Shown in pieces: positions 1-32,364 of a stretch of DNA of 46,881 nt. This DNA is from an uncultured bacterium (lineage in GTDB: Bacteria; Patescibacteriota; Minisyncoccia; Phycocordibacterales; PALSA-1337). Below the pieces are notes generated by a model. It did not search any database, was not told the DNA's origin, and saw nothing but the letters and a program-made list of their open reading frames with translations. The stretch covers positions 1 through 46,881 of the forward strand of contig CAIUOX010000011.1 of NCBI GenBank assembly GCA_903900935.1, written 5' to 3'. Position 1 is the first letter of the stretch, and each line of letters begins with the position of its first letter. A program made the position numbers and the translations under genes.

Positions 1-123
1 CCTGCCGAGTCCTTTTTAGTAGTTTTAATCATTTGGATTTTGCTCGAAATAGTTTCGAACTTTGTCCAGTAAGCACCGCCAATGATATGTACCCCATAAA
101 GTGGACACAGATTTTATGATAAT

Positions 124-684
124 ATGGTGTTCATGAAACTAGATAAAGAAAAAGTTAGAAACCTTGCATTCATAGACGGACAAAATCTACACATGGGCAC
201 AGCAAAGCGGAAAAAAGATCCGTGGCATATTGATCTTGCGCGTTTTCTAGTGTATCTCAAGGAGAAATACAATGTAGATGAAGCTTACTATTTTCTTGGA
301 TATGTTCAAGAAGAAAATCAAGAATTGTATGATGAAATACAGAAGGCTGGTTTCATTCTTAAATTTCGAGAACATAATCCAGCTATGATCGGAAAGAAAA
401 AAGGTAATGTTGATTCGGATATCATTTTCCATATAATGAAAAAGATGTATAAGAAAGAAGATTTTGAAAAGATTGTCCTTGTATCAGGAGATGGTGATTA
501 CAAGCTGGTGGTGGATTTCATGATAGAAGAAAAAAGATTTGTGAAAATATTGTTTCCAGATCTTGATAGAGCATCTTCTCTCTATAAAAAACTCTCAAAC
601 AAATACTTTGCTAATTTGGATAATAAAGATATTAGAACAAAAATCACTATCAGTAACCTGGGTAAAAAGAAAAGGGTGCCTTAG
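124..684 (+). CDS. NYN/PIN-like domain protein (LabA/DUF88-type putative RNase); start may be 133
   Basis: FIDGQNLH near the N-terminus, DSDIIFHI and VSGDGDYKLVV acidic motifs typical of NYN domains. Confidence 0.8.
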   Translation: MVFMKLDKEKVRNLAFIDGQNLHMGTAKRKKDPWHIDLARFLVYLKEKYNVDEAYYFLGYVQEENQELYDEIQKAGFILKFREHNPAMIGKKKGNVDSDIIFHIMKKMYKKEDFEKIVLVSGDGDYKLVVDFMIEEKRFVKILFPDLDRASSLYKKLSNKYFANLDNKDIRTKITISNLGKKKRVP

Positions 685-803
685 GTAATTAACCGTTTGG
701 ACCCCTTTTCGTCGTAATACCTATATCCTAGCTAACGGTTCGCTAAAAGTCAAGCAAAATTGTGGATTAGATTTTGACAATATATTTGTTGTATAATACA
801 TTC

Positions 804-2459
804 ATGAAATATTTTATACGCACCATAATTGCTATCTTTACTATTACATTGATATCTTGTAGCTTTTCTATTCATGCAAATGCCTCATCACAACCATCAC
901 TGCTTGTAACTTCGCTTGGTTCTGATTCTATGCAGGTGTCGGTTATGGCCGGTGATCCAAATTCCACGGTTAGTTTGCACTATCAATCTGCTTCATCAAT
1001 GGCCTCTATTCCTATTGGAACTAGCAATATCAATGGCAATTTGTCTACAATCATCAATTCTACGACATATCAGATAAAGGGAAATACTCAAGTATATGTG
1101 ACCGCAAATGGAGCATCTTCGCCGAGCACTTTGTGGCCTGATTATTCAAATTCTGGAACATTGTCGCTTAGTCCAGCTGGTCTAGCTATGAAAAAGGGAC
1201 AAGTTACTACGGTAGTTGCTTCTGTCGGATCCAATCTATCAGTTTCTGACAATCCAAATCCTTCTGTTGCTATTGTTTCTATAAGTGGTAGTCAGATTAC
1301 GGTAAATGCTTTAAATTCAGGTTCGACCAATATGATCATCTGTGCTTCTAATATAGGATGTAGAACACTTTACGTATCAGTTGATGCACAAAATAATTCT
1401 ATGAATAGTTCAATTTCTTTTAGTCAGAACAATTCATCTATTACTGTAGGCCAAGTACAGAGTATTTCTATATATGGACAAAGTTCATATGTGCTTTCAA
1501 ACAATTCAAATTCTAGCTCAGTTGGTGCAACATTGAATGGTAGCACCATAACTTTGACTGGTCTCATTCCTGGTCCATCAACGATAACTGTATGTGCAGG
1601 AGGTGGAACAGTGTGCAATTATTTATATGTGACTGTTCAATCATCAACTTCATATTTACAGCCAATGATATCTTTTAGTCAAGGTATTCTCAATTTGATC
1701 ATCGGACAAAATCAGTCAGTATCTATAAGTGGAACAGGAACATATGGTATATCCAATAATTCCAATATTGGAGTAGCCGTAGCAAATATTTCAGGATCTA
1801 CTCTCAATATAAATGCTCTTTCGCAGGGAAGTACAACTGTAACTGTATGTGCTATCGGTACAAATAATAGGACATGTAGTGGTGTATCAGTATCAGTACA
1901 GCAGACACAAAGTCAGATTGCATCAACTACAAATCCGAGGATCACTCTTAGTCAGACAAATTTGAATATGACTATTGGACAGAGTCAGTATGTCACAATA
2001 ACAGGTAATGGTGGGTATTATATTTCACAAAATTCTGGACAAAATGCTATTTCTGCAAATATATCTGGTAATACTTTGGAGATAAGTGCCATTGCATCTG
2101 GTGGCTCAAATATAACTGTGTGTCAGAATTCAAATCAGTGTGCCACGGTATATGCCTATTCAGCACCATCTTTCATGAATACTTCAAGTAACAGTCCATC
2201 AGTTATCACGCCCACTTTGGTATTTTTAACATTCAGCAAACCTCTCTATGTCGGAGTAACTGCTCTTGGAATTTCTGATCCAGAAGTAGTAGCTCTACAA
2301 AAGCACTTGAAAGCAGATGGGGTATATTCTGGTCCTATTACTGGATATTTTGGTACCCAAACAAAAGCCGCTGTCCAAAAGTATCAGCGCAAAAATAAGC
2401 TAAGTCCTATTGGATCTGTTGGTCCAGCTACACGCGCATTACTAAACAAAAGTATATAA
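804..2459 (+). CDS. Secreted repeat protein: signal peptide, four Big-like repeats each with a Cys pair, C-terminal peptidoglycan-binding (PG_binding_1) domain
   Basis: ORF 774..2459. N-terminal hydrophobic segment MKYFIRTIIAIFTITLISC; repeats beginning LSLSP/ISFSQ/ISFSQ/ITLSQ; C-term DPEVVALQKHLKADGVYSGPITGYFGTQTKAAVQKYQ. Start 804 chosen from TATAAT at 792-797. Confidence 0.8.
   Translation: MKYFIRTIIAIFTITLISCSFSIHANASSQPSLLVTSLGSDSMQVSVMAGDPNSTVSLHYQSASSMASIPIGTSNINGNLSTIINSTTYQIKGNTQVYVTANGASSPSTLWPDYSNSGTLSLSPAGLAMKKGQVTTVVASVGSNLSVSDNPNPSVAIVSISGSQITVNALNSGSTNMIICASNIGCRTLYVSVDAQNNSMNSSISFSQNNSSITVGQVQSISIYGQSSYVLSNNSNSSSVGATLNGSTITLTGLIPGPSTITVCAGGGTVCNYLYVTVQSSTSYLQPMISFSQGILNLIIGQNQSVSISGTGTYGISNNSNIGVAVANISGSTLNINALSQGSTTVTVCAIGTNNRTCSGVSVSVQQTQSQIASTTNPRITLSQTNLNMTIGQSQYVTITGNGGYYISQNSGQNAISANISGNTLEISAIASGGSNITVCQNSNQCATVYAYSAPSFMNTSSNSPSVITPTLVFLTFSKPLYVGVTALGISDPEVVALQKHLKADGVYSGPITGYFGTQTKAAVQKYQRKNKLSPIGSVGPATRALLNKSI
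1161..2162 (+). repeat. Four tandem ~75-aa Big-like protein repeats
   Basis: Repeats near 1161-1389, 1409-1640, 1666-1901, 1939-2162, each ending in a [IV]C-x(4-9)-C motif (IICASNIGC, TVCAGGGTVC, TVCAIGTNNRTC, TVCQNSNQC). Confidence 0.7.
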
Positions 2460-2501
2460 GCTTGATGGGTATAGGGTTGATTTTATGCTACCCTAAACTC
2501 T

Positions 2502-4286
2502 ATGTCCCATAGACAAGAATATCCAAAAGTCACCATTATCGACGTACTCAAAGAGTATGGCCGTGTTGCCAAAAAGTATTGGTTTGCTCTTATAGTTGCA
2601 ATTATTTCTACTATTGTGCCGATTATATCAGCTAGTATAATCGCGCCACTATTCTATAAGAAATTTTTTGATATCTTGACTCAAGGAGCTAATCCTCTTG
2701 TCGCAACTCCTGAACTAATAAATATTATTCTCTTCATATTGTTGATGAATGTTATTGCGTGGATAAGTTTCCGCATATATTCATTTGTTATTGTTCACAT
2801 ACAAACAGGTATTATGAATAATTTACGCCAGGATGCTTATGATTACATCATTGGTCATTCGTATGCATTTTTTAGTAATACATTCAGTAGTTCATTGGTG
2901 CAAAAGATCAATCGATTCATGCGTTCGTTTGAGCGTGTTACTGATAGATTTTTCCAAGAAATTATACCAATCATGGTCAGAGTTATTGGTGTGTGTATTG
3001 TTCTTTGGTATATACAGCCGATCCTCACTCTTGCCATTGTTATTTGGATGGTTGTATTTCTATTACTTTCATTTGTATTATCACGTTGGAAAATACCATA
3101 TGATATCAATTCTGCAAAAGTGGAGTCTTTGGCTACTGCCACAATGGCTGACAGCCTTTCCAATCATGCCACAATACAGATGTTCAATCGTTTTTCTTAC
3201 GAATCCAGTCTTTTTGGTATTGCAAATACTACTTATACCAAAGCACTCAGTGCAAAATGGAATGTTTCCAATGTGATCGATGCGATACAAGCAGTCCTCA
3301 ATGTTGCTACAGAATTCTTGATCTTTTATGTGGCTATCAAGTTTTGGGGAATGGGCATGATATCAGTAGGAACATTCGTATTGATCCAGATATATATCAT
3401 CGGTCTTATGAACAATTTCTGGGCATGGAGTCGTATATTGCGTGATTTGTATGAAGCCTTTGCTGATGCTAAAGAAGCTGTTGAAATCATGAAACTTTCT
3501 CACGGAATAAAGGATGCTCCTCATGCAAAACCACTCACAGTTACTTCTGGTGCTATTGATTTCAAGGATATTGGTTTTCATTTCAATGAAGGCTCAGGAG
3601 TCTTGAATGGTATTGCCTTGAATATAAAACCTGGCGAACGAGTTGCTCTTATCGGTCCTTCTGGAGCAGGCAAGTCAACAATGGTTAGATTGTTATTACG
3701 TTTGTATGATATCCAAAAAGGCTCTATTTCTATTGATGGCCAGGATATTACACATGTTACTCAGGGAAGTTTACGTGAGTCGATTAGTTTTGTGCCACAA
3801 GATCCGATACTGTTCCATCGTTCACTCAAAGATAATATTAAATATGGCAAAACTGATGCAACTGACGAGGAGGTTATATGTGCTGCAAAACTCGCACATT
3901 GTCATGAGTTTATTGAGACTCTTCCGAATGGTTATGATACCTATGTAGGTGAGCGTGGTATCAAACTTTCTGGTGGTGAACGTCAGCGTGTTGCGATTGC
4001 GCGAGCAATACTCAAGAATGCACCGATTCTTGTGCTTGATGAGGCAACATCAAGCCTAGATTCACATTCAGAAATGCTCATTCAAGATGCACTTGATGTT
4101 CTCATGAAAGATAAAACGGTAGTTGTTATTGCGCACAGACTTTCAACTATCAGTAAGATGAATCGTATCGTTGTGCTTGATCAAGGATCTATTATTGAGC
4201 AGGGTAGTCATGATGAGCTTCTACGCAAAAATGGTCTATATGCAAAATTGTGGTCATTGCAATCGCAAGGATTCATCAAAAGCTAA
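2502..4286 (+). CDS. ABC transporter, fused permease and ATPase (MsbA/exporter type)
   Basis: Walker A GPSGAGKST, signature LSGGERQRVAIARAIL, Walker B ILVLDEATSSLD, six-TM N-terminus. Confidence 0.93.
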   Translation: MSHRQEYPKVTIIDVLKEYGRVAKKYWFALIVAIISTIVPIISASIIAPLFYKKFFDILTQGANPLVATPELINIILFILLMNVIAWISFRIYSFVIVHIQTGIMNNLRQDAYDYIIGHSYAFFSNTFSSSLVQKINRFMRSFERVTDRFFQEIIPIMVRVIGVCIVLWYIQPILTLAIVIWMVVFLLLSFVLSRWKIPYDINSAKVESLATATMADSLSNHATIQMFNRFSYESSLFGIANTTYTKALSAKWNVSNVIDAIQAVLNVATEFLIFYVAIKFWGMGMISVGTFVLIQIYIIGLMNNFWAWSRILRDLYEAFADAKEAVEIMKLSHGIKDAPHAKPLTVTSGAIDFKDIGFHFNEGSGVLNGIALNIKPGERVALIGPSGAGKSTMVRLLLRLYDIQKGSISIDGQDITHVTQGSLRESISFVPQDPILFHRSLKDNIKYGKTDATDEEVICAAKLAHCHEFIETLPNGYDTYVGERGIKLSGGERQRVAIARAILKNAPILVLDEATSSLDSHSEMLIQDALDVLMKDKTVVVIAHRLSTISKMNRIVVLDQGSIIEQGSHDELLRKNGLYAKLWSLQSQGFIKS

Positions 4287-4304
4287 TAATGTTATGATAC
4301 AGGC

Positions 4305-4796
4305 ATGACACATACAATTATTCTCATAATCGCAGGAATCCTTCTTATTCCAGGTATTATAATGTCGATTATTCCTGTAGTTCCAGGAATGTTGTATATG
4401 CTAGTTGTTGTTGTATTATATGGTTTCTATGACAACTTTTATCACATTACTTTGCTTGATGTTGGTATACTTGCTTTGATCTCTGCAATAGCGATGATTA
4501 TTGATACTATTTCTGGATTGATTGGGGCAAAGTGGGGAGGAGCTGATTGGACAGCAATTGTGTCTGGTTTCGTTGGTCTTATATTTGGTTCGGCATTTAT
4601 TCCAGTACCTATCATCGGGAGTATTATTGGAATGTTTTTTGGAGTATTAGCTTCTGAGTGGTATAGAACACGCAATATTGTTCATTCACATCGTGTAGCT
4701 ACTGGAAGCATCATCGGTTCTCTTGCTGGTGCTGGTGTGAAACTTGTAGCATCATTTGCATTCTTAATTTTATTTATTGCATTCGCCCTATATTAG
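4305..4796 (+). CDS. DUF456-like small membrane protein
   Basis: Hydrophobic; DxxSGLIGAKWGGADWTAIVSGFVGLIFG...GSIIGMFFGVLASEW pattern. Confidence 0.75.
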   Translation: MTHTIILIIAGILLIPGIIMSIIPVVPGMLYMLVVVVLYGFYDNFYHITLLDVGILALISAIAMIIDTISGLIGAKWGGADWTAIVSGFVGLIFGSAFIPVPIIGSIIGMFFGVLASEWYRTRNIVHSHRVATGSIIGSLAGAGVKLVASFAFLILFIAFALY

Positions 4797-4828
4797 TTTG
4801 TACGCTATAATTTTCAATATTCAAACGT

Positions 4829-5620
4829 ATGATACTCCTTATTTCTCTTGCAACATTCACAGCTACGCTAATCGGTGGTCTTGTTGCTGTGCGTCTCAAA
4901 GATAAGCTCCATATAATTCTTGGTTTTAGTGCTGGTGCAATAGTTGCTGTTGCATTTTTTGATCTTATACCAGAATCACTCAATATTGGTTCTCGTTTTT
5001 TTGGTGCTGATACTATTATGAGTATTGTTGCTCTTGGTTTTTTGATATATCTGGTTCTTGATCGCGCCATATTTCTTCATGCACACGCTCATGAAGAATG
5101 TGAAACCACTGGACATACTTTTGATATTTCAAAACATGAGCATGATCATGAATATGAACCATCAGTCATAGAATCAAAAAAGCTTAGACGAGGTGTATTT
5201 GGAGCAGGAAGTCTTTCAATCCATAGTTTTCTAGATGGTGTTGCAATTGGCCTTTCATTTCAGGTATCTACTACTGTTGGTATTATTGTTGCGGTAGCTG
5301 TTCTCGTGCATGATTTTTCTGATGGTATGAATACAGTCAGTATGATCCTCAAGAATAAGGGTACTACAAAACACGCACTTCGATGGCTTGTAGTAGATGC
5401 AATAGCTCCTGTATTGGGTGTCACATCAACTCTCTTTTTTACATTACCAGAACAATATTTGAGCGTTGTTCTTGCATTATTCTCTGGTTTCTTTTTGTAT
5501 ATTGGTGCTAGTGATCTTATTCCTGAGAGTCAGCACAAGCATCCAAAATTATTAACTACAGGTATGACACTGTTTGGAGCTACTGTACTATATGTTGTGA
5601 TACGTATTGCTGGATTATAA
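4829..5620 (+). CDS. ZIP family metal transporter
   Basis: His-rich loop HAHAHEECETTGHTFDISKHEHDHE, then SIHSFLDGVAIGLSFQ and VLVHDFSDGMNTV ZIP motifs. Confidence 0.88.
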   Translation: MILLISLATFTATLIGGLVAVRLKDKLHIILGFSAGAIVAVAFFDLIPESLNIGSRFFGADTIMSIVALGFLIYLVLDRAIFLHAHAHEECETTGHTFDISKHEHDHEYEPSVIESKKLRRGVFGAGSLSIHSFLDGVAIGLSFQVSTTVGIIVAVAVLVHDFSDGMNTVSMILKNKGTTKHALRWLVVDAIAPVLGVTSTLFFTLPEQYLSVVLALFSGFFLYIGASDLIPESQHKHPKLLTTGMTLFGATVLYVVIRIAGL

Positions 5621-5690
5621 TCTTGGAAACATAATTGTAGTGAGTAGCTATCAATCTATATAGTATATTTTTTCTGCTATACTATCATTC

Positions 5691-7607
5691 ATGAATAGTA
5701 TCTCTCATATTGCTTCTACGCATACAAAACGTACATTTACTGAGATAGAAGGAACATTTTTTCTGGTGATGGATATAACGCTTATTGTTGCTACAACTAT
5801 CATGTTGATTGCTTCTTTTTTCTTGCATAAAGATATTGCTGATATTATTCTTGCAACTCTGACAGTAATAGGACTTATTCCTGTAGCAGTGTCCGCTATT
5901 CATTCACTGATTCGAAGACGGCTTTCAATTGATTTGCTCGCTGCTATTGCTCTGATTTTCTCGCTTATTTCTCGAGAATGGTTCTCAGCAGGATTTATTA
6001 CGTTGATGTTGGCTTTCGCCCGTCTTTTTGGTCGTATTACCGAAGCTCGCGCCAATAAGACCATTCAAAGTTTGATGAAATATCATGTTGAGAATGTACG
6101 CGTACAAGTCGGAGAAACTATACGAGAAATGCACATTAGTGAAGTTAAAAAAGGCGATCATGTCATTGTTGAATCAGGAGATCGTATGCCAGTTGATGGT
6201 ACAGTTATATCTGGTGTAGCTGAGATTGATGAATCTTCATTGACTGGCGAGAGCGAATTGGTTCCCAAAAAGGTAGGTGATCAGGTATATACAGCCACTG
6301 TCAATGAATCTGGTTCACTCGTAGTCCGTGCAGAAAAGCTTGGTGCAGATACTACATTGTCTCGTATGATTAGTTTGGTTGATGAGGCAAGTCGCCAGAA
6401 GAATGATGCTGAGCGTGCTGCGGATAGATTTACTCAATGGTATATTGCTCTATCATTGGTTACAGCTGTAACAATGTATATGCTTGGTATAAGTCCAAGA
6501 AATATACTTTCAGTTTTATTGGTAGTTTGTGCAGATGATATCGCTGTTGCAGTACCACTTGCATTCACTGCAGCTATTAGTCGTGCGGCAAAGCGTGGAG
6601 TTATCGTGAAAGGTTCACAAGCATTTGAGCAGATATCTCGCTTAAAATATATTTTGACTGATAAGACCGGCACGATTACTAGAGGTAAGCCAAAAGTTAT
6701 TGATATCAAAGCATATGGTCCATGGTCTATTGAACAGGTCGTTGAGTATTTTGGTATGGGGGCCTCAGAGTCGCGACACATAGTCTCTCGAGCTATTCTT
6801 GAATATTTATCTGAGCATCATCTATCTGTGCATGCACCACATGAATCATCAGAAGTTTCTGGTCAAGGCATCAACTTTTCTCACGATAATCAGCAGATGT
6901 TCCTTGGTCGCCTTTCATTCTTGGAAACAAAAGGTATTCATGTTGATGAAGCAATCATACGAGACATCACTAGTGAAAAAGATGCAGGCAGAGGAATCGT
7001 TGTGCTAGCAATCAATAATGAGATTGCTGGTCTACTCTCATACCGCGATGAAATTCGTCCAAGAGTAAAAGAAATTATTGCAGAAACAAAAGAGCTTGGT
7101 GTATTGGAGTGGCATTTGTTGACTGGTGACAATGAGCGCTCTGCGGCTCCAGTGGTCCGCGAGCTTGGTATCAATGATTTTCATGCCAATATGACTCCTG
7201 AAACAAAAGTTGCTTTTATCAAAGCTTTTCAGGAAAAACACCGTGCGCACTCAAAACACGCCAATTGGGAGGTGGTTGGATATATTGGTGATGGGGTGAA
7301 TGATGCTGGTGCCTTGGCGCTTGTGGACGTATCTATTGCAATGGGTGGAATCGGAGCTGATGCCGCGATAGAAGCATCTGATATAACAATCATGAAAGAT
7401 CATCTGTCTAGATTGCCAGAAGTAATGCTTTTGTCACAGCGTGTTACTAGAATCATGCATCAGAATTTTGCTATATGGGCTATTACCAATATCATTGGAT
7501 TGGGATTGGTTGCATTTGGAGTAATTGGACCAGCAGGTGCCGCTACATACAATTTTCTTTCTGATTTTTTGCCGATCGGTAATGCTCTTCGTGCAGGAAG
7601 AAAATAA
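5691..7607 (+). CDS. P-type ATPase, P1B-like but with a non-canonical TM4 motif
   Basis: SLTGES, DKTGTIT, GDGVNDAGAL; CPx region reads VVCADDIAVAVPLAF; no N-terminal HMA domain. Confidence 0.88.
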   Translation: MNSISHIASTHTKRTFTEIEGTFFLVMDITLIVATTIMLIASFFLHKDIADIILATLTVIGLIPVAVSAIHSLIRRRLSIDLLAAIALIFSLISREWFSAGFITLMLAFARLFGRITEARANKTIQSLMKYHVENVRVQVGETIREMHISEVKKGDHVIVESGDRMPVDGTVISGVAEIDESSLTGESELVPKKVGDQVYTATVNESGSLVVRAEKLGADTTLSRMISLVDEASRQKNDAERAADRFTQWYIALSLVTAVTMYMLGISPRNILSVLLVVCADDIAVAVPLAFTAAISRAAKRGVIVKGSQAFEQISRLKYILTDKTGTITRGKPKVIDIKAYGPWSIEQVVEYFGMGASESRHIVSRAILEYLSEHHLSVHAPHESSEVSGQGINFSHDNQQMFLGRLSFLETKGIHVDEAIIRDITSEKDAGRGIVVLAINNEIAGLLSYRDEIRPRVKEIIAETKELGVLEWHLLTGDNERSAAPVVRELGINDFHANMTPETKVAFIKAFQEKHRAHSKHANWEVVGYIGDGVNDAGALALVDVSIAMGGIGADAAIEASDITIMKDHLSRLPEVMLLSQRVTRIMHQNFAIWAITNIIGLGLVAFGVIGPAGAATYNFLSDFLPIGNALRAGRK

Positions 7608-7657
7608 TTTACTATATTCAAATATGGCGATGGTGATGTACATGTTATACTTATTTC

Positions 7658-8299
7658 ATGAATATATTCATAACATCTCCACTTATAGGATTGGTCGCGC
7701 TGGTACTTGTATGGATTATTGCCAGCTGGAAGGTCAATCGCGTCAGCTCACCACCATATCATGTGATTTCCAAAAAGAAGGAGTATGAGATACGTGCATA
7801 CAATCCTTATATTGTCGCTGAGACTATTGTAGAAGGTGATCGAGATATTGCGATGAAAACTGGTTTCAAAATTCTTGCTTCATATATTTTTGGTGGCAAT
7901 GTTGATCGTACAAAGATAGACATGACGGCCCCTGTAGTTGAGAGTGATTTGGCTTCGGTCAAAATTCCAATGACTACTCCAGTAATTGTCAGAGACAATT
8001 CAAAGACTTCTCACGTCATTTCTTTTGTGATGTCTAGAGAATATACGCTTGCCACTCTTCCCAAGCCTACTGATTCTCGTATCGTTTTCAATACAATACC
8101 TGCACATAATGTGGCAGTTAGAAATTTTTCTTGGTATGCCAGCAATAGTCGGACTCAGAAACAAAAAGATATACTGAATGCAGTTTTGACTCGTGATGGA
8201 ATCATACAAGAAGGTGGCATATCATATGCTGGCTATACTGCACCATTCACGATTCCTTTTATGGAAAAGCATGAGGTTATGGTTAGAGTTCAAATATAG
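7658..8299 (+). CDS. SOUL/HBP family heme-binding-like protein
   Basis: YEIRAYNPYIVAET, DMTAPV, IPMTTPV, FVMSREYTLATLPKP. Confidence 0.85.
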   Translation: MNIFITSPLIGLVALVLVWIIASWKVNRVSSPPYHVISKKKEYEIRAYNPYIVAETIVEGDRDIAMKTGFKILASYIFGGNVDRTKIDMTAPVVESDLASVKIPMTTPVIVRDNSKTSHVISFVMSREYTLATLPKPTDSRIVFNTIPAHNVAVRNFSWYASNSRTQKQKDILNAVLTRDGIIQEGGISYAGYTAPFTIPFMEKHEVMVRVQI

Positions 8300-8329
8300 T
8301 ATAGTTAAATATGCTACTCTATATTTTCA

Positions 8330-9937
8330 ATGTCAAATAACTCCAAAACAGCGTTTTCTTGGGATACTATTATTCGTTTTGATGATGTATCTTTTGAATG
8401 GGGACACAATAAGCCAATTCTTGATGATGTTTCATTTACTGTTCGTCGTGGTACAAAAGTTACCATTATGGGCCAGAATGGTGCTGGTAAGACCACTATT
8501 TTTGGATTGATTCTAGGTGCTACTACGACTGAGCAGAGTCAGCTCTTGGAACATAAAGAAATATGGAAACCTGAATCTGGAGAGATCTTTATTACAAATG
8601 GTGTAACGGTTGCAACGAGTCGCCAAGTTATTCCACGTGATCAGCTCAATCTCACGGTGCGTGAATTTTTCGCTACTTCATTTAAGAAAAAAATATATGA
8701 TCTCGATCCTCGTATTGATGAGGTGCTCAATGTTGTTAATCTGCATATAGGTAAGAAGAGCACAGGTAGTAAAGAAGTTTCTCTTGATATCAAAGATCGT
8801 TTGATAAAAACATTTTCTGGAGGTCAGCAGGCACGATTACTTTTGGCGTCGGCATTAATTCAAGACCCTGATATTTTATTGCTTGATGAACCAACGAATA
8901 ACCTAGATAAAGCAGGTATTGAACATCTTACGGACTTTCTGGTGAATTATAAGAAGACTTGTTTGGTTATTTCTCACGATGCTGAATTTTTGAATGCATT
9001 CACGCATGGAGTTTTGTATCTAGATGTATATACCAAGAAAGTAGAACAATACGTGGGTGATTACAAAGACGTGGTTGAACAAATCAGTGTGCGCATAGAA
9101 AAGGAAAATATGAAAAATGCCCAATTGGCAAAGCAGATTCAGGCCAATAAAGATCAAGCCAATGTCTTCGCGAATAAAGGAGGCCAGATGCGTCTAGTGG
9201 CAAAGCGCATGCGTGAGAAAGCTGAAGAGCTTGAAGAAGAGATTGTTGATGTGCGCAAAGAAGATCGCACTATAAAGCCTTTTACGATACCTTCTCAGCC
9301 AGATCTTATTGGTGAAATAATCAGTATTTCATCATATTCAATAATGAATCCGAAGACACATAAGGCAGTAAAGCGCACCACCAAGATTTCATTACGCAAA
9401 AAACAGCATTTGCTTCTCTCTGGTCCAAATGGTATTGGCAAGAGTACATTGCTAGAATCAATTGCTCGCCATGTAGGTGTGGTTACTGATATACATCATC
9501 ATTCATTGGTCAATGCTGAAGTATCAATCGCTCCTGGTATTCGCGTCGGCTATTATAGACAAGATTTCTCAATGATGGATTTCAATGATACGGTCTATCA
9601 AAGTCTAGAAAAAGTGATTCGCTCAGTTGAAGGTCGCCTCATAGAAACTGAACTTCGTGCTGTAGCTGCAAGTTTCCTTATCACTGCTGAAACAATCCAT
9701 ACCAAAATTGCATCGCTCTCTGAAGGGCAAAAGGGTCTCGTTGCTTTTGCGCGTCTAGTATTACAACGTCCAGGACTACTTATTCTCGATGAGCCAACGA
9801 ACCATATCAACTTCAGACATTTGCCTGTAATTGCAAAGGCACTTGATCAGTATGAGGGTGCAATGATTTTGGTTTCCCACGTTCCAGAATTTGTGAAGCA
9901 GATACGGATTGATGAGGTATTGGATTTGGGGAAATAA
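8330..9937 (+). CDS. ABC-F family ATPase (two ABC domains, no TM)
   Basis: GQNGAGKTT, FSGGQQARLLLASAL, LLLDEPTNNLD; second domain GPNGIGKST, LSEGQKGLVAFARL, LILDEPTNHIN. Confidence 0.9.
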   Translation: MSNNSKTAFSWDTIIRFDDVSFEWGHNKPILDDVSFTVRRGTKVTIMGQNGAGKTTIFGLILGATTTEQSQLLEHKEIWKPESGEIFITNGVTVATSRQVIPRDQLNLTVREFFATSFKKKIYDLDPRIDEVLNVVNLHIGKKSTGSKEVSLDIKDRLIKTFSGGQQARLLLASALIQDPDILLLDEPTNNLDKAGIEHLTDFLVNYKKTCLVISHDAEFLNAFTHGVLYLDVYTKKVEQYVGDYKDVVEQISVRIEKENMKNAQLAKQIQANKDQANVFANKGGQMRLVAKRMREKAEELEEEIVDVRKEDRTIKPFTIPSQPDLIGEIISISSYSIMNPKTHKAVKRTTKISLRKKQHLLLSGPNGIGKSTLLESIARHVGVVTDIHHHSLVNAEVSIAPGIRVGYYRQDFSMMDFNDTVYQSLEKVIRSVEGRLIETELRAVAASFLITAETIHTKIASLSEGQKGLVAFARLVLQRPGLLILDEPTNHINFRHLPVIAKALDQYEGAMILVSHVPEFVKQIRIDEVLDLGK

Positions 9938-31013: not shown

Positions 31014-31103
31014 GGAGGGTTCGCATAGCGGTCTAGTGCGCCACCTTGGAAAGGTGGTATACCCGAAAGGGTATCAAGAGTTCAAATCTCTTACCCTCCG
31101 CCA
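31014..31103 (+). tRNA. tRNA-Ser (anticodon GGA), CCA encoded
   Basis: GGAGGGT/ACCCTCC acceptor, CCACC-TTGGAAA-GGTGG anticodon arm, long variable arm, T-arm GAGTTCAAATCTC. Confidence 0.93.
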
Positions 31104-31146: not shown

Positions 31147-31305
31147 ATGTATTATGTATATAGCTTAAAATGTAAAGATGGTTACTATATTGGTTGCATA
31201 GATAAACTAAAAGAAAGAATTTCCAGACATCAGAAATGTAATGTTCCGGCGACAGCAACAAGACTACCTTTGAAGTTAGACTTTTACTTTGTTATTGTTC
31301 TTTGA
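31147..31305 (+). pseudogene. Truncated GIY-YIG nuclease fragment
   Basis: Reads MYYVYSLKCKDGYYIGCIDKLKERISRHQKCNVPATATRLPLKLDFYFVIVL*; stops after ~52 aa. Confidence 0.7.
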
Positions 31306-31318
31306 TAGAGAATCACTG

Positions 31319-31394
31319 TTGACCCAGTAGGTCAATATGCTGATTGAGACGAGCTTTTTGAGCCTTAAATCAGGGCCTAGAAAGCTCGTCTCAA
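31319..31394 (+). promoter_or_regulatory. Two-hairpin leader upstream of the DGR-like gene
   Basis: TTGACC-cagta-GGTCAA (31319-31335) and TTGAGACGAGCTTT ... AAAGCTCGTCTCAA (31344-31394). Confidence 0.55.
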
Positions 31395-31463
31395 ACTAAG
31401 GCAAGACGTTCCGAGCGTTCTCGGTAAATCAAAAAAAAGAGATGATATCGATGAAAAAAAACA

Positions 31464-32243
31464 TTGAATACGTCTGCACTGGTAACCGCAGACAGTCCGA
31501 AAGGACAGAGAGCTACCGAAACGTTCCGCGCCCAATACAACAAGGCTGGACTCGATGATGACAGTGCACAGATCCTGAACGAGCATCCCGGCTTCGCCGT
31601 GTATCTCGCAGAAGGCATCCGTCGCTTCTCAGCGAAAGCGCCCAACTACGGTCTGGCGCAGTCAATCCTCGGCACGGATTTCATTACCGCCGAGGAAGTC
31701 ACCAAGGCTCGCCCGAGCATCGTTTACACCGTCGAACAGATCACGGCACTCGCCGAAAGTCTGCCGTCGGAGGACGTTCTCAAGTGGTGCAAGGACAACG
31801 GTTACGCCGTCATGCCTGCACCTCCCACAGCGATGTCCACGCTCGACGTTCGGGAGATCCAGTCCGCCCACTTCTACTCGAAGACGGGTGGATGGTATGC
31901 CGATCAGAAGTTCGCCCGCGAGGACAAGACGTCCTTCGGCTGGCTCCTGATCAAGAAGACGCATGTTTCGAACTCGACCAGCAAAAACTGGAACGAGCAG
32001 AACAAGCTTCTCTCCGCACTCGAGAAGGTGCCGAACGCTGCCGAGATGAGCTGGTTCATCACGACCTACTTTGAGGTTCGTGGCGTCCAACTCTTCGAAG
32101 GCGTTTATGTTCGGACGTCCAGTCTCGACTCGGACGGTGACCGTGTCGGCGTCGGCGGCTTCGATTCCGACGGGCTCAGCGTCAACGGCTATTGGGACGA
32201 CGACCGCAGCGACGACATCGGGTTGTCGGCTGCCAGGAAGTGA
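31464..32243 (+). CDS. GC-rich cassette protein with DGR-target-like (C-type-lectin-like) C-terminus
   Basis: Open from TTG 31464; ATG 31451 is out of frame by one nt because of an A8 run; C-term VYVRTSSLDSDGDRVGVGGFDSDGLSVNGYWDDDRSDDIGLSAARK. Confidence 0.75.
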   Translation: MNTSALVTADSPKGQRATETFRAQYNKAGLDDDSAQILNEHPGFAVYLAEGIRRFSAKAPNYGLAQSILGTDFITAEEVTKARPSIVYTVEQITALAESLPSEDVLKWCKDNGYAVMPAPPTAMSTLDVREIQSAHFYSKTGGWYADQKFAREDKTSFGWLLIKKTHVSNSTSKNWNEQNKLLSALEKVPNAAEMSWFITTYFEVRGVQLFEGVYVRTSSLDSDGDRVGVGGFDSDGLSVNGYWDDDRSDDIGLSAARK

Positions 32244-32281
32244 TTCTTGATCCCTTGAGGGCTTGTCCCTCTTGAATACTT

Positions 32282-32311
32282 GAGCCTCCGCGATTTTTTT
32301 CGCGGAGGCTC
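32282..32311 (+). terminator. Strong rho-independent terminator of the DGR-like cassette
   Basis: GAGCCTCCGCG-attttttt(t)-CGCGGAGGCTC then TTTCTTTTT. Confidence 0.9.
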
Positions 32312-32364
32312 TTTCTTTTTATATAGAAGTTGTTTTGAGGATAATATTTTATTAAAATATAAGC

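Follow-up and report, generated by a model that had tools for sequence, protein, structure and literature searches.

A GC-rich gene in a 46,881-nt stretch of an uncultured Patescibacteria (CPR) genome (the window) is almost certainly the variable protein (VP) gene of a diversity-generating retroelement (DGR), with a variable repeat (VR) that has been rewritten at adenines. The associated arrangement of template repeat (TR), VR, reverse transcriptase (RT) and Avd gene is present in relatives, the window VR diverges from the template at adenines only, and a second copy of the gene on contig C18 of the same genome diverges independently at adenines. With the template located beside RT and Avd in relatives and VR divergence confined to adenines, the original prediction that this CPR genome carries a DGR target held up. 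In the mechanism we propose, the DGR RT and Avd, acting as a complex, would copy TR RNA carrying AAC codons and misincorporate opposite TR adenines; the cDNA would then replace the gene's 3′-terminal VR of 115 bp, presumably by retrohoming, and about ten residues on the surface of a domain that is probably C-type-lectin-like, on a conserved scaffold, would be re-randomised. The window copy was probably last rewritten from a TR identical, outside adenines, to that of the same-genus genome UBA5187 (locus L005).

Features of the variable protein locus in the window and of DGR-related loci on other contigs of the same genome
Feature	Location	Strand	Basis or remark
tRNA-Ser(GGA)	31014..31103	+	ARAGORN
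Truncated GIY-YIG ORF, 52 aa	31147..31305	+	Cut where cassette homology begins
5′ leader segment identical to the end of contig C15, exactly 127 bp	31297..31423	+	Sequence comparison
Long hairpin (22-bp) in VP 5′ leader	31344..31394	+	Homology to most relatives begins here
ATG followed by A8	31451..31461	+	One base out of VP frame; in frame in relatives
VP ORF, 259 aa	31464..32243	+	Read from sequence
N-terminal module, aa 1-58, low-confidence helical	31464..31637	+	Also on L011 DGR target
Conserved scaffold domain	31638..32122	+	Comparison with C18 copy
VR, 115 nt	32123..32237	+	11 A-to-G changes relative to L005 TR, 0 other
Fixed 3′ end of VR, IMH-like (putative role)	32217..32237	+	TR-VR comparison
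Terminator-like hairpin	32282..32311	+	Homology to several relatives ends nearby (window about 32312-32328)
Degraded second DGR	Contig C4 (L040) 1-1296		AAC-rich TR-like repeat at contig end, Avd, RT stopped before YxDD
AAA ATPase gene and small partner gene	Contig C15 (L100) 618-2460		AbiLi-like by PADLOC; partner weakly AbiLii/possibly RloB-like

The strongest evidence comes from comparison of the VR with the L005 TR (5424-5533, minus strand), which served as the reference template in place of one from the window's own genome. The two repeats are equal except at adenines: over 115 nt, mismatches occur at 11 of the 28 TR adenines and at none of the 87 other bases, a confinement with a hypergeometric probability of 3e-8. 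The prediction that the C-terminal codons derive from AAC by adenine substitution was thereby confirmed, and its bounds for the repeat (32103-32240) were corrected to 32123-32237. The VR occupies the 3′ end of the VP coding sequence, its changes fall at first (six) and second (five) codon positions and never at third positions, and no TR codon of L005 can reach a stop codon through adenine changes. Following CTGCCAGG, the VR has AAG where the TR has CAG, as in all close relatives, a difference consistent with a putative IMH/IMH* role. The GC-rich ORF with the described C-terminus is present, and the VP gene has a GC content of 58% (74% at third codon positions, GC3) compared with 39% for the whole window; because the entire gene is GC-rich, a run of xxC codons by itself proves nothing. 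That the acidic, repeat-like C-terminus is simply a product of this codon usage, and not of a DGR, is nevertheless very improbable, since an actual template was found and adenine-only divergence recurs in many independent TR-VR pairs. A chance codon pattern was likewise rejected on the strength of the template match.

The AAC-rich template that the original prediction expected beside an RT was found in same-genus and other Patescibacteria genomes, adjoining both RT and Avd. A genome scan identified seven relatives, in Patescibacteria, and a VP profile matched 46 of 397 genomes of the order. At loci L005-L009 a distance of 0.5-1.2 kb separates the TR from a same-family VP, and the TR adjoins an Avd gene, which is antisense to the RT gene and overlaps its start; a DGR-type RT beside the TR is present at these and other loci and absent from the window. 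The RT of relatives contains the motifs GNLTSQ and YTDD and matches Pfam RVT_1 and PHROG_1423, and its best solved relative is PDB 8ub7 (E 4.6e-56), which we take to be the BPP-1 DGR RT. The L005 Avd protein matches PF22296, phrog_3206 (‘Avd protein of DGR’) and, just under the cut-off, NF033474 (NCBIfam). Across 17 non-redundant TR-VR pairs the mismatches were confined to adenines, apart from a single other mismatch in each of three pairs. The orientation of TR to VR is divergent in L005 and L007 and collinear in L006, L008 and L009. In L052, as in G051, two targets share a single TR; the two VPs of L052 (G383) are in tandem and carry 14-16 A-to-G changes each. In G051 the TR and the second target are each located at the end of a contig and might be adjacent to one another; this case therefore demonstrates multi-targeting and not distance.

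The window's own genome contains a second VP copy, on contig C18, that is frameshifted within its VR. Compared with the L005 TR, this VR differs by 20 substitutions, of which 17 are at TR adenines (8 to T, 5 to C and 4 to G, counted by hand from the alignment) and 3 at other bases, plus one inserted G. The copy varies at the same adenines as the window VR, and the differences of this paralog from the template lie predominantly at adenines, as predicted, and not at random. The bodies of the two genes are 95% identical, with 20 of 24 differences at third codon positions, which points to purifying selection on the scaffold. The distance between the two copies is roughly the same as that of either one to L005; a recent duplication therefore did not produce them.

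All 11 changes in the window VR are A-to-G, a pattern that the original prediction called unusual. This description is weakly true: across the 17 TR-VR pairs, 170 of 281 changes (60%) are A-to-G, and the share varies strongly between pairs (11 of 12 in L062, 3 of 19 in L072), which places 11 of 11 at the edge of the family bias (P = 0.04 in a beta-binomial fit to the family dispersion). The reconstituted BPP-1 RT misincorporates mainly C (about 59%), corresponding to A-to-G in the VR (PMC12875486). Given the bias of both the family and the BPP-1 RT, a special A-to-G chemistry is not needed and was set aside.

The start of the cassette also required revision. It had been placed at 31451, where an ATG lies one base off frame in the window; the start in the VP frame is a TTG at 31464. 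The A8 tract after this ATG possibly reflects phase variation, slippage or a homopolymer error. The VP matched no Pfam family at the cut-off, no PHROG and no PADLOC entry, and a PDB sequence search with the VP returned nothing significant. An AlphaFold2 model of residues 57-259 had high confidence (pLDDT 96, pTM 0.92) and placed the VR on the last strands. In Foldseek searches the C-terminal domain gave only weak matches (E ≥ 0.1, TM ≤ 0.42), none of them significant, largely to FGE/EgtB/C-type-lectin folds and including the DGR variable proteins Mtd, TaqVP and TvpA. The domain is probably C-type-lectin-like, and a ligand-binding, lectin-like target is our best inference for the VP. The weak matches to C-type-lectin folds, together with the out-of-frame ATG and the uniform A-to-G direction of the changes, are points against the DGR-target reading. 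The N-terminal module of the VP recurs on L011, a DGR target whose variable region is unrelated; sharing of this module without the variable region indicates that the targets are modular.

Neither a TR nor an RT is visible in the window, as originally noted, and the same largely applies to the assembly as a whole, which is 97% complete. A pattern search of this assembly for the cognate TR, allowing up to 3 mismatches, found the window copy alone. The only DGR-type RT of the genome, on contig C4, breaks off ahead of YxDD and is accompanied by an unrelated TR; this TR did not match the window VR or the C18 copy when considered as their template, and no second copy of it was found in the genome. 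Without a cognate TR or an intact RT in an assembly of this completeness, present activity is unsupported. Contig C15 contains, in order, the VP leader, the promoter-like and TR-upstream region of L005 and L007, and a short stretch whose L005 counterpart adjoins tRNA-Gln on the far side of the RT 3′ end. Before the tRNA-Gln of C15, where relatives have TR-Avd-RT, there is an AAA ATPase gene and its partner. We read this arrangement as loss or replacement of the TR-Avd-RT core at tRNA-Gln, with the reverse order also possible; the AAA ATPase pair in C15 and the TR-Avd-RT core in L005 suggest that the tRNA-Gln site is a hotspot for cargo.

Two states of the window gene can account for these observations. 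The likelier, with somewhat better than even probability, is that it is a frozen relic or stranded target, the RT-TR core having been lost and the VP copies left behind. The C15 locus, which retains the VP leader and the TR-upstream sequence by the same tRNA-Gln and lacks TR-Avd-RT, argues for this state, as do the truncation of the sole RT, the frameshift and the 3 non-adenine changes within the C18 VR and the out-of-frame ATG in the window. Target-only fragments in Nanoarchaeota have been reported as fossils or remote targets (PMC4372165). However, the window VR lacks non-adenine decay, and the third-position bias of the differences between the two copies implies a scaffold still under purifying selection, both of which argue against a relic.

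The other state, a serious contender with a probability a little short of even, is a live remote (trans) target, in which an RT-TR core that is in the cell and was left unassembled or unbinned still rewrites the VR; the core would then lie at least 14.6 kb from the VR, if the contig is correctly joined. DGR repeats break assemblies, and contigs C18, C4 and C15 each terminate in DGR sequence. Action in trans with perfect non-adenine matches is documented in another bacterium (PMC10907252), and cyanobacteria have been described with remote variable proteins (PMC7517822). In the window, the absence of non-adenine mismatches to the L005 TR can be set against a difference of 5.5% in the gene body, from which 4.7 mismatches would be expected among the 87 sites (P = 0.008), and weakly suggests that the VR was rewritten after the split from L005. 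This evidence is weak because TRs themselves change slowly, those of L007 and L046 differing from the L005 TR by 1-2 bases, so that slow TR divergence could also yield a perfect match. The ATG out of frame and the absence of both a cognate TR and an intact RT from the assembly also count against a live trans target.

Many other members of the family were found without companions. L053, L055, L049 and others have hypervariable-looking C-termini, but the surrounding ~1.5 kb contains neither an RT nor an Avd gene nor a TR, and several genomes of such members hold an RT elsewhere. In G185, G203, G205 and G379, the TRs flanking the remote RTs did not match the companion-less VPs at the thresholds used, and thus these cases do not demonstrate trans action.

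The boundaries of the cassette bear on how it reached its present location. Within the genus, conserved synteny extends as far as the tRNA-Ser 3′ end, with 80% nucleotide identity to G030 stopping at window position 31101. The truncated GIY-YIG ORF that follows (Pfam PF01541, E 6e-5) covers positions 1-52 of the 78 in the profile. The left junction at 31297, where the window and C15 share exactly 127 bp, may be an assembly branch, since a de Bruijn assembler run with k = 127 produces overlaps of precisely this length at branches. The sequence to the left was therefore joined either truly, with two leader copies in two places, or by the assembler, and claims on the insertion site are accordingly tentative. 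The leader hairpin is conserved in L005, L006, L007, L009, L010, L030 and L046, with compensatory changes (for example, GC to UA in L009), and had no Rfam match at the cut-off.

It is conceivable, although we consider it unlikely, that DGR target units of ~1 kb (5′ hairpin leader, VP and terminator) move between Patescibacteria and between sites independently of the core. If so, they would be plug-in target cassettes diversified in trans by any compatible core, and the core at the tRNA-Gln site would be swapped with defence genes. In L009, a phage terminase large subunit gene (4172-5722) lies directly upstream of the DGR VP, and a CPR phage or prophage may be carrying the cassette; no relatives were found in phage records or IMG/VR. 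L005 carries a large serine recombinase (7129-8460) whose end coincides with the limit of homology to the window (window 32600) and which may have served as a vehicle for the cassette.

Remote and target-only DGR genes are already known from Nanoarchaeota, cyanobacteria and Thiohalocapsa, as is a CPR DGR clade, and the window gene adds a member. The Patescibacteria-restricted DGR clade 2 (Roux et al. 2021, PMC8144416), to which we liken the window gene by host lineage, shares with it a CPR host, a DGR RT with Avd, targets lacking a recognised domain and an adenine-biased VR, but the window target is not beside its RT and TR. The Nanoarchaeota fragments (Paul et al. 2015, PMC4372165) are likewise VR-bearing targets without an RT and have the same fossil-or-remote ambiguity; they belong to another domain of life, and other DGRs remain there, whereas the remaining DGR-type RT of the window's genome is truncated. 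The remote targets of cyanobacteria (PMC7517822) and Thiohalocapsa PB-PSB1 (PMC10907252) match their TRs perfectly outside adenines, as the window VR does, but their TRs are in the same genome and the template matching the window VR was found in relatives only. The BPP-1 DGR (RT, 8ub7; Mtd, 1yu0) resembles the window family in RT family, Avd, AAC-rich TR, 3′-terminal VR and a suspected C-type-lectin target; in contrast to its phage tail-fibre target, that of the window is a cellular protein with its own N-terminal module.

Surveys that require an RT beside the VR miss remote targets (PMC8144416). The window gene illustrates that codon pattern alone can reveal an isolated DGR target, which a template in relatives can then confirm. 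It adds a CPR target family in which several members lack companions, together with a locus from which the core is missing, and provides a test case for whether stranded targets in CPR cells are kept as fixed binders or diversified in trans.
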